The translations under genes were made by a program, and so were the position numbers. Below the pieces are notes generated by a model that was not told where the DNA came from, searched no databases, and saw only the letters and a program-made list of their open reading frames with translations. Source: Salinibacter sp. 10B (lineage in GTDB: Bacteria; Bacteroidota; Rhodothermia; Rhodothermales; Salinibacteraceae). Taken from it: a stretch of 64,000 nt of DNA. Below are positions 4,066 through 54,279 of the stretch, piece by piece; position 1 is the first letter of the stretch, and each line of letters starts with the position of its first letter. The DNA lies in assembly GCF_002954405.1 (NCBI RefSeq), contig NZ_MQWC01000004.1, positions 2,685,909 to 2,749,908 of the forward strand. Reading direction: 5' to 3'.

Positions 4066-4611
4066 CTAGACCCGCGTAAAGATGCGGAGTCCGAGCAGCG
4101 TGAGAGTGCCGAGCGTCGAAAGAACCGAGAGCACGTCCCGCCAGCCGAAGGGTTGCTTGGGCCGCACCGTCTCAACCACGACAATATCGTTGTCTTGAAG
4201 GGACGGGTAGGACGGACTCCCCCGCAACATTCGGTCCAGTTCCGACTCAAAAATTTGGTTTCGCCCGTCTGTGCCGGGGCGGTAGACGCGGACGGTAATG
4301 GTGGGCGCCTTCCGGTCCTCAACGCGGGCCTCCATCGGCGCTCCACCCGCCATCGTCAGCAGCTTGTCCAGGTCCGTTGTGTCGGGCACCTCGTAGACCC
4401 CAGGGCGGGGCACGGTTCCCCACACCGAGAGCTGTACGGTCGCCTCGCCCGGGCGCGCATGGTAAAAGTACGCAACGTTCGACTTTGTCTCCTCCACTCG
4501 GCCGAAGGCTTGCGCCCGGAGGGCCTGGGGGGCAACAAGGGCCCCGCAAACAACAGTGAGGAGGAGCGCAACTCCCCAAGCTTCCAGACGCATGGACGAG
4601 ACGGTGCGCAT
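4066..4611 (-). CDS. SLBB-domain polysaccharide export protein (short form)
   Basis: A 181-residue exported protein: a signal peptide over about residues 1-34 ending LRAQA, then one SLBB-like beta-grasp unit around residues 55-140 (VQLSVWGTVPRPGVYEV and a following DLDKLLTMAGG). A C-terminal hydrophobic segment (about 160-178, VLSVLSTLGTLTLLGLRIF) may anchor it in a membrane. The canonical N-terminal Poly_export domain of Wza proteins is missing, so this is not a complete outer-membrane export channel. It is the first gene of the operon that continues with the Wzc-type kinase. It probably cooperates with Wzc in the periplasm; a full-length Wza homologue may be elsewhere. Confidence 0.75.
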   Translation of the reverse strand: MRTVSSMRLEAWGVALLLTVVCGALVAPQALRAQAFGRVEETKSNVAYFYHARPGEATVQLSVWGTVPRPGVYEVPDTTDLDKLLTMAGGAPMEARVEDRKAPTITVRVYRPGTDGRNQIFESELDRMLRGSPSYPSLQDNDIVVVETVRPKQPFGWRDVLSVLSTLGTLTLLGLRIFTRV

Positions 4612-4789
4612 TCCACAGTGGAACTGTACAGTGGGCGAAGTGAACGTGCGGCTCTATGCGTGATTTCAGTATCCGTTCCAAGTCGACGGTTCAGTTTCGT
4701 GGGAGTTTTCCTGTCGACGGTCCGTCCGACGCCTGTTCGGCGAAGGGGCACAGGCGATTGGGGGCGGGTGTGCCGTCGCCTTGAAGAAG

Positions 4790-4806
4790 CGATCCGGAAC
4801 GGATCG
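4790..4806. promoter_or_regulatory. Operator-like palindrome between divergent operons
   Basis: A perfect inverted repeat, CGATCCG-GAA-CGGATCG, lies in the 249-bp gap between the SLBB/Wzc operon (minus, start 4611) and the exosortase gene (plus, start 4861). Position and symmetry suit a dimeric regulator controlling both directions. No regulator gene is adjacent, and it could also form a small RNA hairpin in the exosortase leader. Confidence 0.35.
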
Positions 4807-4860
4807 TTTCCCCGTTAGGTAGGACGACTCCTGTTCCTGTTTCCGTTCTGATGGATCACA

Positions 4861-5436
4861 ATGTCCACTGCAGACTCCGCCCCACCTATGAGTTCGCGCC
4901 GCCGGATTGCCGCGTTTATTGGCAAGGTGCTGGCGTTCTATGGGCTCTGGTACGTGCTGTACGATCTTTGGCTGTTGCCGGCCGGCACAGTAGACCAGTG
5001 GCTGTCGCTCAATGTGGCATCGGTGAGTGGAGCGTTGCTCAACGGACTTGGGTTTGAGGTGAGTGTGTCGGCGCGCGGGCTGTCGCTGCCGGGCGTGCCG
5101 GGCATCTATATTGCCAACGGCTGCAATGGGCTCTCCACGCTCGGTCTCTTCGTGGGATTCGTGCTGGCTTATCCCGGCAGCGCGTGGCGACGGGTGTGGT
5201 TTCTTCCGCTCGGCATCCTTGCGATCTACGCGACCAACGTGGTGCGCGTCGTAATTATGCTCTTGAGCCAGAAGTACTGGCCTGCGGCCTTCGAGCCGCT
5301 TCACGGCTTTGGGCTCACCACCATCTTCTACGTTGTGGTCTTTGGCCTCTGGGTCGCATGGGCGAACTACGGGGGCGATTCCGCCGCTGCTCGTGTCGAT
5401 GGTGCGGATCCCACGCCCGCGGTCTCCCCGTCGTAA
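4861..5436 (+). CDS. Exosortase/archaeosortase family transpeptidase
   Basis: A 191-residue polytopic membrane protein. The three residues that define exosortases can be placed: Cys88 in IANGCNGLS, Arg129 in TNVVRVV and His148 in LHGFG, each next to a membrane helix. Family members cleave a C-terminal sorting signal (short motif, membrane helix, basic tail) and hand the protein to a surface anchor, usually in strains that make exopolysaccharide. That fits the divergent EPS operon starting 249 bp away. The protein is compact and lacks the extra domain fused to some exosortases. A small membrane partner follows after 60 bp. No protein in the window has an obvious PEP-CTERM-like tail, so the substrate lies elsewhere or is unusual. 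An in-frame ATG at 4888 is an alternative start. Confidence 0.88.
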   Translation: MSTADSAPPMSSRRRIAAFIGKVLAFYGLWYVLYDLWLLPAGTVDQWLSLNVASVSGALLNGLGFEVSVSARGLSLPGVPGIYIANGCNGLSTLGLFVGFVLAYPGSAWRRVWFLPLGILAIYATNVVRVVIMLLSQKYWPAAFEPLHGFGLTTIFYVVVFGLWVAWANYGGDSAAARVDGADPTPAVSPS

Positions 5437-5496
5437 AGGGGGCACCTCGGGGTTTTTGGACCCATCCGTTCGAAATGCTCAATCTCCCACACCAAG

Positions 5497-5964
5497 ATGG
5501 CCTCCTGGCTCCACCGAATTTTGCTGGCCGGTCTGCTGCTAGCAGCCTATCTCTTTGCCTGGACGCCGGCCCGCACCGCCTGGGTGACTCATCTCGCCAC
5601 GCCCGTGCTGGAGTACAGCACGTCTCCAGAAGTGCAGGTCTCGGCGCGCGCCCGTGTCCACACCATCCGGGTACAAGCGCCCAGCGGAGCGAAGCTCACC
5701 TACATGGCACCGGCCGGCGTGAAGTTTCTCCTCCCTGGGCTCTTCCTCACCGTCTTTGTAGTGGCTCGTCCCCGGCTTGGTTTGTTCTTCGGCGGTCACC
5801 TTTTTCTGGGCGGCGTGGTTCTCCTCCTGGCCGTGGGCGGAGTGACCGGCATGCCGGGCGGACTGATTCTGGCCGATTTCGTGCAGCAGTACGGGATCGA
5901 CGCCTACAGCCTCACGATGCCCACTCTCGTCCTGGTACGTTCCCTGAAGACACAAAATACGTAA
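5497..5964 (+). CDS. Small membrane protein, probable exosortase partner
   Basis: A 155-residue protein with an N-terminal membrane helix (about 7-24), a short polar extracytoplasmic stretch (about 40-75), and two or three further helices (about 78-95, 98-120 and possibly the C-terminus). I recognise no enzymatic motif. It follows the exosortase gene by 60 bp on the same strand. Subfamily-specific accessory membrane proteins are known next to several Bacteroidota exosortases, and this one has the right size and place. Function inferred from context only. Confidence 0.6.
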   Translation: MASWLHRILLAGLLLAAYLFAWTPARTAWVTHLATPVLEYSTSPEVQVSARARVHTIRVQAPSGAKLTYMAPAGVKFLLPGLFLTVFVVARPRLGLFFGGHLFLGGVVLLLAVGGVTGMPGGLILADFVQQYGIDAYSLTMPTLVLVRSLKTQNT

Positions 5965-6224
5965 ACTTCCGCTTGACGAGTCCATGTAGCTCTCTTACCT
6001 TCCGAGTTCCAGTTTCACCCTTTCCGCTTGTAACGACGCTCTTTTTTAGTCGTCCTCTCCACACAAATGGATGCGGAGCTTGGTATCAACATGTGACCGG
6101 CATACATGTTGTAGTAGCCTATGTTGACCAGAGCAGTTGCTGCTTTCGATCCTTAGGCCACCGTGTCAGGTTAGGAGCCTCCCGGCCCTCTCCAATTTAC
6201 TGATTTTTTATACTACGAAGTTTT

Positions 6225-51183: not shown

Positions 51184-52194
51184 TTACAGCCAGTCCTGTT
51201 CCCGATACCAGTTCACCGTTTCGGCAACACCTTCTCCGAGCGGAATGCGGGGGGCATACCCGAAGTGCTTCTGCGCTTTCTGGCTGGAGCAGGCGGTGAT
51301 TGCGTGGCGAATTTCGCGGGCCTTGTCGCGGTTGAGGGGCGGGTAGGTGCCAGTGAGCTTTCCCCACGCCTCGGCCAGCGTCCCGACGACGCCCACGACG
51401 GGAGAGGGCACCGGGAGCGTAACGGCCCAGGTGTTGAGGGCGTCGGTGGCGGCGCGCTTCACCTCATTCCACGTGTAGGGCTGTTCGCCGCCGAGCAGGT
51501 AGGTCTCCCCCGCAGCCCGCGACGACCGACTTGCCTCGACCATGCCGCGGGCAAGGTCGCGAGCATGCACGAGGCTCAGGCTCCGCTCGGCCCCGCTGCC
51601 CACGACGGGGCACACGTGTCGTTGGACCGCCCTGAAGAAATCCAGGATGTCGCGATCGCGCGGGCCGTACACGGCGGGAGGGCGGACGACGGTAAGCGGG
51701 AGAGCCTCCCAGTAGGATTCCGTCATGTCGTGAGCGTCGCGCAGCGCCGCTTCCATTTGCGCCTTGCTTTTGCCGTAGCGGCTGACGGGACGGAGGGGAT
51801 GCTCCTCGGTTGCCACCTCGGCGTCGCAGCGTCCCACTGCGGCGAGGCTGCTGGTAAGGAGGATCCGCTCCACGTCCGGCGCGGCGTGCTTGACGGCGCC
51901 CAGAAGGTTGAGCGTGCCCTGCACATTGACCTCGTAGAAGGAGGCCCATTCGGGGGCGCGGGTGATGCCGGCAAGGTGATAGACGTGCGTCACCCCGTCG
52001 AGCGCCGTCCACAGCGTCTCCACGTCCGACAGGTCGCCGTGCACGTAGGTGACGTCCAGGTCCGACAGCCATTTCGGATCGGAGCGGACCATGCAGCGGA
52101 TCTCGCTCACTCCGCGGCGCAGGAGCTCTTCCACGAGGTGGCTGCCAACGAAGCCGGTCCCGCCGGTGACGAATGCGATCTTGGAGTCAGACAC
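51184..52194 (-). CDS. NAD(P)-dependent epimerase/dehydratase (extended SDR)
   Basis: A 336-residue extended short-chain dehydrogenase. Nucleotide-binding loop GGTGFVG at 11-17, LTSSLAAVG with the catalytic Ser at about 116, and the Tyr140-x-x-x-Lys144 pair (RYGKSK). Family includes sugar epimerases, dihydroflavonol-4-reductase-like and 3-beta-HSD-like enzymes; the VYHLAGITRAP and RPPAVYGPRD segments resemble the latter two, so the substrate is open. It reads away from its neighbours, convergent with the small unknown gene. Confidence 0.9.
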   Translation of the reverse strand: MSDSKIAFVTGGTGFVGSHLVEELLRRGVSEIRCMVRSDPKWLSDLDVTYVHGDLSDVETLWTALDGVTHVYHLAGITRAPEWASFYEVNVQGTLNLLGAVKHAAPDVERILLTSSLAAVGRCDAEVATEEHPLRPVSRYGKSKAQMEAALRDAHDMTESYWEALPLTVVRPPAVYGPRDRDILDFFRAVQRHVCPVVGSGAERSLSLVHARDLARGMVEASRSSRAAGETYLLGGEQPYTWNEVKRAATDALNTWAVTLPVPSPVVGVVGTLAEAWGKLTGTYPPLNRDKAREIRHAITACSSQKAQKHFGYAPRIPLGEGVAETVNWYREQDWL

Positions 52195-52231
52195 GATTCA
52201 GTGGTGGCTTGCCGGGGGAGAGGCGAGGATC

Positions 52232-52249
52232 GAGGATTGAGAATCGAGG
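52232..52249. repeat. Left inverted repeat flanking the four-helix-bundle gene
   Basis: GAGGATTGAGAATCGAGG, inverse of the right copy at 52782-52799 with one mismatch in 18. It lies in a purine-rich stretch (GGGGGAGAGGCGAGG) of simple-sequence character. Confidence 0.65.
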
Positions 52250-52377
52250 GGGGAGAGGCGAAGGGGGAGGAACTAGAAGATCGAGCATTGAGGGGGCGTT
52301 GAGGAGGCGAACGTTATGATCAGCTTGTGCCACGTGTCTCCAAAGGGCAGCGCACATTGCACATCCATTCAGTCATT

Positions 52378-52761
52378 ATGGCGAAGATCGAGAGTTTTCG
52401 GGAACTGAATGTGTATCGACGGGCGCATCGACACGCCAGCGTCCTCTTTGAACGATCTCATCAGTTTCCAAAAGAGGAGAAGTATGCGCTTACAGATCAG
52501 ATCCGTCGTTCTTCCCGAGCCGTCACCGCTCTTCTGGCGGAAGCGTGGGCACGTCGACGGTACAAGGCTGTCTTCATCAATAAGGTGAACCAGGCGCTAG
52601 GGGAGGCAATGGAAACGCAGGCGTGGCTCGATCATGCTCGGTCCTGTGGCTATCTCGATGAAGACGAGTACGAGAAACTCAACGACGCCTGGAATCACAT
52701 TGGGGCCATGCTCAGACGCATGATTCAACGTGCTGACGGGTTCTGTAGCTCTTCTCCGTGA
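52378..52761 (+). CDS. Four-helix-bundle protein (23S rRNA intervening-sequence type)
   Basis: 127 residues from the ATG at 52378. It begins AKIESFRELNVYRRAHRHAS and has EEKYALTDQIRRSSRAVTALLAEAW, KAVFINKVNQALGEAMETQAWLDHA and CGYLDEDEYEKLNDAWNHIG, which fit the conserved helices of the IVS protein family. Homologues are encoded within intervening sequences of 23S rRNA genes in some bacteria and as scattered single genes elsewhere; their function is not settled, though nucleic-acid binding is likely. Flanked by an 18-bp inverted repeat pair 551 bp apart. No 23S gene is in the window. Confidence 0.88.
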   Translation: MAKIESFRELNVYRRAHRHASVLFERSHQFPKEEKYALTDQIRRSSRAVTALLAEAWARRRYKAVFINKVNQALGEAMETQAWLDHARSCGYLDEDEYEKLNDAWNHIGAMLRRMIQRADGFCSSSP

Positions 52762-52781
52762 TCGAGGAAGCAGCATGCAAT

Positions 52782-52799
52782 CCTCGCTTCTCAATCCTC
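52782..52799. repeat. Right inverted repeat flanking the four-helix-bundle gene
   Basis: CCTCGCTTCTCAATCCTC; its reverse complement differs from the left copy at one position. It follows the stop codon by 20 bp. Confidence 0.65.
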
Positions 52800-52872
52800 A
52801 CGACTCTCCTACTCTACGGTGGTTGCCTGATCCCGTCTGGTATCCAGTTCCATCTCACTCGTCATTCCTCAC

Positions 52873-54279
52873 CTAATCATCCCGCGTCAATCGAACCACG
52901 TTTTCCACGTGCGGCGTGTGCGGAAACATGTCCACCGGCTGCACCGCGTCGATGCGGTACGTGTCGCGCAGGCGCTCCAGGTCGCGCACCTGGGTTTGCG
53001 GGTTGCAACTCACGTAGACGAAGCGCTCTGGGGCCAGCTCGGCGATCTGTGCCACCACGTCTTTGTGCATACCCGCCCTTGGTGGATCCACGATGAGAAC
53101 GTCGGGCTCGCCGTGCGTCTCAACGAAGGCAGAGGTGAACAGCTCCTTGAGGTCGCCGCTCACGAACGTGCAGTTGTCCACCCCGTTCATCTCCGCGTTC
53201 GTACGCGCGTTGGCGACCGCGTCCTCCACCAGCTCCGCTCCGATGACCTCGTTCACGTGCTCGCTCATGTAGAGGGAAATCGTGCCCGCGCCACAGTAGA
53301 GGTCGTATAGCCGATCGGACGGACGGAGCTCGGCAAACTCGCGCGCCACCTCGTAGAGCTGCTCCGCCTGGAGCGTGTTCGTTTGGAAAAAGGCACTGGG
53401 ACTGATCTCAAACCGGTAGTCGCCAATCTCGTCGTAGATGACGCCCGGGCCAAAGACGACCTGTTCTTCCCCTTCCGGATTTTGCGACTTGCCGGTGTGG
53501 TTGGTGTGGATGAAGGTCGTCACCTCGGAGAAGTCTCTCTGCAAAAACGCCGCAAATGCCGAGATCCGATCGTCCGGCGCTCCGTACGTCACGAGGTTGA
53601 CCATGCAGTCGCCCGTCTGCTCGCCGGTGCGAAGGACGAGGTGGCGCAGAAAGCCCTCCTGGTTGCGGATGTCCCACGGTGCCCAGCCCTGCTCCTTCAC
53701 GAAGGTGCGGATGCCGTTCACGAGCCGCACGCTGAGCTCCGAGTGCAGATGGCACTCCTGTAGGTCGAGCACTTTGAAGAAGTTGCCAGGCACGTGAAGC
53801 CCCAGAGCAAAGTCGGTATCGAACTCTTTGCCCGTGTCGATCTCGTCGCGCGTAAGCCACCGGTCCGCGCTGAAGTCGAAGTCCATCTTGTTTCGGTAGA
53901 AGAACCGCTTCGGGGATCCGATCGTCGGGCGTACCTCCACGTCCGAGAAATCGGTCTGCTGCTCGAACGCTTCCCGGACGCTTTGCCGCTTCATGTCCAG
54001 CTGAGCCTCGTAGCGAACGTGTTGCCACTTGCAGCCGCCACACTCGTCGGCATAGCGACAGCGGGGCTCGGTGCGCAGGTCGCTGGGGGTCAGAAGGGTG
54101 TCGAGCTTGGCCTCCGCGTAGCTCGACTTCGGGTTGTGCACGTAGGCTCTCACGCGGTCACCCGGAACGGCCCCCTCCACGAAAATCACGTAGCCGTCCA
54201 TACGGGCAAGGGATTTTCCCTTGTCGGCAAATTTTTCAATGTCGAGGTCAATCAGCTCACCTCGGGTAACAGGGGGCAT
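52873..54279 (-). CDS. rlmD: 23S rRNA (uracil-5-)-methyltransferase RlmD
   Basis: A 468-residue protein. An N-terminal TRAM domain (about 8-60, DIEKFADKGKSLARM ... GDRVRAYV) is followed by the iron-sulfur cysteines Cys74, Cys80 and Cys83 (CRYADECGGCKWQH) and Cys176 (LQECHLHS). The methyltransferase domain has DLYCGAGTISLY, VDPPRAGMHK and the catalytic nucleophile Cys425 (YVSCNPQTQVRDL). It makes 5-methyluridine in 23S rRNA; E. coli RlmD modifies U1939. Which TrmA/RlmC/RlmD position is used cannot be proven, but the TRAM domain and 4Fe-4S set fit RlmD. Confidence 0.93.
   Translation of the reverse strand: MPPVTRGELIDLDIEKFADKGKSLARMDGYVIFVEGAVPGDRVRAYVHNPKSSYAEAKLDTLLTPSDLRTEPRCRYADECGGCKWQHVRYEAQLDMKRQSVREAFEQQTDFSDVEVRPTIGSPKRFFYRNKMDFDFSADRWLTRDEIDTGKEFDTDFALGLHVPGNFFKVLDLQECHLHSELSVRLVNGIRTFVKEQGWAPWDIRNQEGFLRHLVLRTGEQTGDCMVNLVTYGAPDDRISAFAAFLQRDFSEVTTFIHTNHTGKSQNPEGEEQVVFGPGVIYDEIGDYRFEISPSAFFQTNTLQAEQLYEVAREFAELRPSDRLYDLYCGAGTISLYMSEHVNEVIGAELVEDAVANARTNAEMNGVDNCTFVSGDLKELFTSAFVETHGEPDVLIVDPPRAGMHKDVVAQIAELAPERFVYVSCNPQTQVRDLERLRDTYRIDAVQPVDMFPHTPHVENVVRLTRDD

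Follow-up and report, generated by a model that had tools for sequence, protein, structure and literature searches.

Genes for the "23S rRNA intervening sequence protein" (IVP) are known mainly as passengers inside rRNA genes. The presence of one in the ordinary intergenic DNA of our window, the whole 64-kb stretch of DNA analysed here, where it is bracketed by a repeat and the inverse of that repeat, raises the question as to what kind of element it belongs to and whether that element is transferable or self-spreading, as the initial annotation of the locus had suggested.

Anatomy of the cassette

The forward-strand 18-mer GAGGATTGAGAATCGAGG at 52232-52249 returns as its inverse with a single mismatch (17/18) at 52782-52799, and with two matches at up to three mismatches in the window compared with a shuffle mean of 0.04 the bracketing of a four-helix gene reported in the initial annotation is confirmed. 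Both 18-mers belong to longer arrays of 7-nt units, of which they are the best-matched part; the inverted pair itself extends to 29 nt at 79% identity (52221-52249 with 52782-52810). The left arm (52214-52249, forward strand) is made up of the approximately 7-nt units GAGGATC, GAGGATT, GAGAATC and GAGG and more degenerate units occur within 52214-52294, the continuation at 52250-52294 (forward strand) belonging to a direct-repeat family, D1, with 67-77% identity to the reference unit. The right arm (52782-52812, reverse strand) is an inverted array, and the predicted minimum-energy fold of the cassette pairs it with the left arm on both strands. The host neighbours, both on the reverse strand, are a NAD-dependent epimerase/dehydratase gene (51184-52194; PF01370, 2.4e-32) and rlmD, encoding the 23S rRNA uracil methyltransferase (52873-54279; TIGR00479, 1.7e-100). 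Across the whole genome the 18-mer has 21 matches at up to three mismatches, two of them in this cassette, in comparison with one for a reversed control, which marks the arms as members of a dispersed repeat family.

Profile matches to PF05635 (2.9e-28, 98.6 bits, cut-off 33.8) and TIGR02436 (6.5e-26, 90.7 bits, cut-off 24) clearly assign the enclosed gene (52378-52761, forward strand, 127 aa, alternative GTG start at 52327) to the four-helix-bundle IVP family, as had been proposed from its sequence. Solved relatives are 2RLD and 2GSC; by homology the protein would form a toroidal pentamer. Close database relatives come from Salinivenus iranica and other bins of halophilic Bacteroidetes. The dN/dS of the gene against its orthologue in congener G003 is 0.07, and values of 0.02-0.11 for IVP genes indicate purifying selection on them.

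The earlier statement that nothing else lies between the arms is right as far as genes are concerned, the IVP ORF being the sole recognisable one, and needs correcting for the leader of approximately 130 nt that precedes the ATG. This holds a promoter-like element, CGTTATGATCAGCTTGTGCCACGTGTC (52312-52338, forward strand), 66 nt before the ATG, whose CGTTAT-n-GTGTC pattern recurs at the same distance from the ORF in the cassettes of divergent IVP subfamilies. We rejected it as an IVP-specific signal; it is found as well in front of ssb, a GIY-YIG gene, a RAYT-like ORF and an AraC-like gene and is therefore probably a host promoter type. CGTTA-n-GTGTC occurs elsewhere in the genome at contig C4 positions 1815849, 1902632, 2164301 and 2398435 and is possibly an uncharacterised promoter class of the lineage.

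Comparison with rRNA intervening sequences

The intervening sequence (IVS) in the rRNA of Coxiella burnetii is 428 nt long with an S23p ORF and a 28-bp terminal stem. GACAGAT heptamers, variable in number, precede its ORF, and RNase III excises it (PMC4990558). The window cassette resembles it in having a PF05635-type ORF, a terminal stem and heptamers, whereas the Coxiella IVS sits in helix 45 of 23S rRNA and the cassette is intergenic, between the epimerase gene and rlmD; further differences are that the right arm of the cassette is also an array and that there are many loci with differing arm sequences. As the anatomy of an IVS is present and the rRNA location is not, we call the cassette IVS-like and not an rRNA IVS. 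With inverted ends predicted to pair as a stem around a PF05635 gene in intergenic DNA, and no Rfam match anywhere in the 64-kb window, the suggestion that the hairpin form known from rRNA also occurs outside it is upheld.

Inverted heptad arrays around IVP genes in other phyla

The window protein was searched in one genome per species, which gave 52 loci labelled as Bacteroidetes, Verrucomicrobia, Planctomycetes, Acidobacteria, Chloroflexi, KSB1, Deltaproteobacteria and others, 43 of them usable. Inverted-arm scores of at least 14 were found at 35 of these 43 compared with 8 of 848 control placements, arranged identically at other positions in that DNA; the other eight loci lack clear inverted arms. 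Self-match at lag 7 was 0.75 beside the IVP genes and 0.50 further off. Arm sequence varies by locus and the two arms of one locus match each other, own-locus pairs scoring 18.9 against 10.7 for different-locus pairs (permutation p 5e-5 for this gene-oriented cross-phylum set). Restricted to the loci of the genus, whose strand orientation is mixed, the same permutation gave no significant result for inverted arms (p 0.11). In 34 of 35 loci that had been selected for matching arms, the two arms pair with each other in the predicted minimum-energy fold.

Cyanobacterial plasmids supplied an independent annotated set of 14 IVP genes, of which 11 have inverted arrays (score at least 14.5, control maximum 10) with a period of 7-9, mostly 8. 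Two of the remaining three have no arrays and one, L264 on the Oscillatoria nigro-viridis plasmid pOSC7112.02, has direct rather than inverted ones. The repeat-bracketed layout noted at a single locus is thus systematic, and by sequence comparison an IVP gene typically lies between complementary arrays of approximately 7-nt period in at least six phyla. Two contigs that carry such cassettes, L100 and L111, are labelled Akkermansia muciniphila and Klebsiella pneumoniae; both are from metagenome bins and the labels may be wrong.

IVP loci within the genus

The count of gene plus flanks that had been proposed as a check on this locus gives seven IVP loci in the own genome and 1-12 per genome across 13 genomes of the genus. 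The arms of the seven differ at each locus, with repeat units of GTATTGC/GTATTTC at leuC-leuD, GAATTGC at pheS-pheT, GGGTTGG at L002 and GAGGATT at rlmD-epimerase, and at three of them (L001, L003, L005) arm pairing is weak by alignment score. Several cassettes lie inside operons, some antisense to the operon, and two of the seven copies carry a stop codon. Among 13 congeners no PF13366 gene (GxxExxY/PDDEXK_3) was found as alternative cargo, and the phage records searched gave no relatives. Two congeners have unusual loci. In G010 (L219, G010:C157:4500-6543) several truncated 5' parts of an IVP gene stand in a row over approximately 1 kb, which looks like repeated duplication or insertion of the beginning of the gene. 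In G003 (L057/L222, G003:C123, approximately 4500-6000) an insertion of approximately 1.5 kb separates the IVP gene from the right arm of its cassette; judged from its translation, the insertion appears to be a TnpB-type (IS200/605-like) gene.

Gene-less hairpins

We scanned 1.2 Mb of the own chromosome for hairpins without a gene. There are 19 tandem arrays at lag 7 (multiple: 14) after removal of two N-runs, compared with none or one at each of lags 4, 5, 8, 10, 11 and 13 and two to seven at lags that are multiples of 3, as expected for coding DNA. Nearly all of the lag-7 arrays are accompanied by an inverted partner at a distance that is usually 13-50 nt. Within this region the arms of three own-genome cassettes, that of the window included, have 10, 10 and 24 near copies elsewhere compared with 0 for the reversed sequences, and those of the other four show no clear excess of dispersed relatives. 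The GTATTGC family has 65 matches in the own genome (0 in the control) and 64, 68 and 1 in congeners. A hairpin, of two unit types, occupies the leuD-ilvD junction in nearly all congeners having the junction. The atpE gene of the ATP synthase operon is flanked by two gene-less heptamer hairpins (C4:2909104-2909163 and 2909575-2909682); by synteny the atp region of G003, G004 and G010 is too diverged to show hairpin-free sites. Where they share cassette arm families, the gene-less hairpins look like short non-coding counterparts of IVP cassettes. Repeats found alone at random places had been named as evidence against the cassette; taken as worded this is not what we see, the gene-less repeats being inverted hairpins and some of them belonging to the arm families of cassettes.

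Empty, hairpin-only and occupied sites

Six congeners retain rlmD or at least a remnant, and all of them show the order epimerase-IVP-rlmD, with flanking arrays. The other pattern that was to count against the cassette, the same gene fixed at this locus without repeats, is accordingly not observed in that literal form. The empty site that had been sought at the rlmD-epimerase junction is found in genus g9, where in three genomes rlmD is followed by the epimerase gene after approximately 150-190 nt with nothing between, and a bare hairpin follows rlmD in genus g7. In genus g5 an IVP gene follows rlmD in the opposite relative orientation in G018 and is of another class in G017. We did not find rlmD in the near-complete congeners G001, G002, G005, G006, G010 and G012, and in G008 (L063) it is a short remnant adjoining the IVP cassette. 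Empty, hairpin-only and occupied states also exist at two further sites. Between pheS and pheT some congeners and genus g4 carry IVP cassettes, others bare hairpins of several unit types and at least five genomes neither, and at leuC-leuD there is no IVP gene and just 125-134 nt in G002, G011 and G014.

Turnover between sister species

The sister species G003 and G004, with a median DNA identity of 98% over approximately 115 kb, differ at three IVP sites. At rlmD they share 97% identity in RlmD and 60% in the IVP, and the divergence reaches approximately 70-90 nt into the adjacent genes, a pattern consistent with homologous import. One of the two carries an IVP cassette between pheS and pheT where the other carries a bare hairpin. 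The sequence that differs spans the interval from stop to start codon almost exactly on the pheS side and extends approximately 50 nt into pheT; G005 and G006 present the same pheS-pheT case. At leuC-leuD both gene type and arm type differ, inside a wider region of approximately 90% identity. Two of the three IVP sites are among the approximately eight divergent blocks of the sequence that G003 and G004 share, although these are small numbers. A 203-bp and a 5-kb indel between the two species were considered as hairpin insertions and set aside as they look like coding differences. Arms at orthologous sites match better within than between species, significantly at pheS-pheT (p 0.010) and not significantly at rlmD (p 0.075). 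These genome comparisons show positions to be stable and arms and whole cassettes to turn over fast, and the recent movement that is visible is import of entire cassettes at unchanged sites, probably by homologous recombination.

Transfer and mobility

The window protein shares 62-71% identity with IVPs assigned to other phyla, although individual labels are uncertain because some contigs may be misbinned, and the own IVP is 57-88% identical to those of congeners at the same site. The first range lies within the second and relatives occur on conjugative and mobilizable plasmids, a distribution most naturally read as horizontal transfer, which sequence identity supports. On the cyanobacterial plasmids a gene annotated as an integrase or tyrosine recombinase often lies directly 3' of the IVP gene (L263, L289, L291, L293, L294); at L290 the neighbouring gene is of the DDE type and at L292 an integrase is upstream.

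Of the two properties suggested for the cassette, transferability is borne out by exchange between lineages, in the identities across phyla and in the swaps between sister species, and self-spreading is not. The IVP ORF is the only one inside and its Pfam and NCBIfam domain hits include no transposase or recombinase. No target-site duplication was seen, the empty sites being too diverged or recombinational-looking, and the IVPs of the own genome are at most 62% identical to one another, which argues against recent jumps within it.

Why the arms match

If selection acted on a sense RNA stem, arm mismatches should show an excess of G.U over A.C. Over 63 loci there were 118 G.U and 134 A.C mismatches (p 0.34), so that selection of the arms as an RNA stem is not supported and their matching would be better explained by a process at the DNA level, or by selection that is blind to strand. 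Candidate DNA processes would be template switching between the arms, hairpin-dependent repair and repeated replacement.

The same mismatch counts weigh on the idea that these are ordinary intercistronic hairpins, transcript-stabilising or terminator-like and selected as RNA, in whose loops IVP genes came to lie by chance. Hairpins do occupy conserved places between operon genes, such as leuD-ilvD, pheS-pheT and atpB-atpE-atpF, but in many phyla arrays enclose IVP genes far more often than control positions and sister species show wholesale replacement of unit sequence, and we consider this explanation unlikely. A passive origin of the arrays, by slippage of heptamers in the repeat-rich intergenic DNA where IVP genes are common, with the inversion a by-product of strand-biased composition, would account for some matching across loci; upstream DNA is indeed purine-rich (0.62) and downstream DNA pyrimidine-rich (purine fraction 0.39), and arms of different loci match better than controls (mean 10.7 compared with 9.3). 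Set against this are the much higher own-locus score and the specificity of the excess for lag 7 over general low complexity, which leave slippage very improbable.

An autonomous transposon would have the arrays as terminal inverted repeats and the IVP as the transposase carrying the cassette to new sites, and in its favour the cassette is a single gene with inverted ends in a multi-copy family, similarity extends across phyla and the class or orientation of the IVP after rlmD differs among genera. Yet the ends of the seven own-genome cassettes are wholly different within one genome, the family hits include no transposase, nuclease or recombinase domain, and neither recent jumps nor target duplications are evident; we judge a transposon to be decidedly unlikely. 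The protein is also a four-helix bundle distantly similar to the Avd protein of DGRs, from which an element mobilised by a reverse transcriptase acting in trans might be imagined. This similarity falls below the family cut-offs (NF033474, 1.7e-9, 38 bits, cut-off 80; PF22296, 21 bits, cut-off 40), and unlike in DGRs there is no reverse transcriptase in the own genome, with no RVT_1 match there or in eight cassette-bearing congeners, so retro-mobilisation is the most improbable of the origins considered.

A proposed widespread IVS-like cassette

The reading that we prefer, and to which we would give a probability of approximately 60%, is of a widespread IVP cassette with the anatomy of an IVS in ordinary intergenic DNA, a small IVP gene inside complementary arrays of approximately 7-nt units. 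Its arms would fold as a hairpin in single-stranded DNA or RNA, and in operons and rRNA genes the hairpin may allow looping out or excision of the insert from the host transcript, which would make it tolerable. More weakly, the IVP might bind the arms and help the hairpins to persist or to be copied as DNA, roughly as RAYT does for REP, contact between IVP and arms being a candidate interaction by analogy. A broader version, in which IVPs are dedicated partners of a large class of hairpin elements, binding the arms and driving their copying, remodelling or spread without a known transposase, with rRNA IVSs and at least part of the unexplained heptamer repeats of cyanobacteria and Bacteroidota as special cases, is possible but rather doubtful.

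REP/REPIN sequences with RAYT are likewise dispersed intergenic hairpins, accompanied by one small protein gene that has related repeats on both sides. The IVP system shares this arrangement; it differs in that the cassette has no Y1 transposase and its arms are long imperfect heptad arrays. A RAYT-like ORF is present elsewhere in the own genome. Heptamer direct repeats such as TAACTGA arrays have been described from Beggiatoaceae, Cyanobacteria and Bacteroidetes, their mechanism not being known (PMC4679880). With these and the cyanobacterial STRRs our arrays have in common tandem intergenic 7-nt units, evident in the lag-7 excess beside IVP genes and in the 1.2 Mb scanned, as well as dispersal and a scattered phylogeny, whereas here the arrays are inverted pairs, often around an IVP gene, and the unit varies by locus.

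A literature search, most subscription journals lying outside it, returned no link of IVP genes to inverted heptamer arrays outside rRNA, and the pattern appears to be undescribed. The function of the rRNA IVS protein and the origin of heptamer arrays are two puzzles that are usually kept apart, and the nesting of one within the other in at least six phyla joins them. IVP cassettes would help to explain the scattered, multi-copy "four helix bundle protein" genes of many genomes, and the pattern suggests a family of DNA elements that is widespread and little known.
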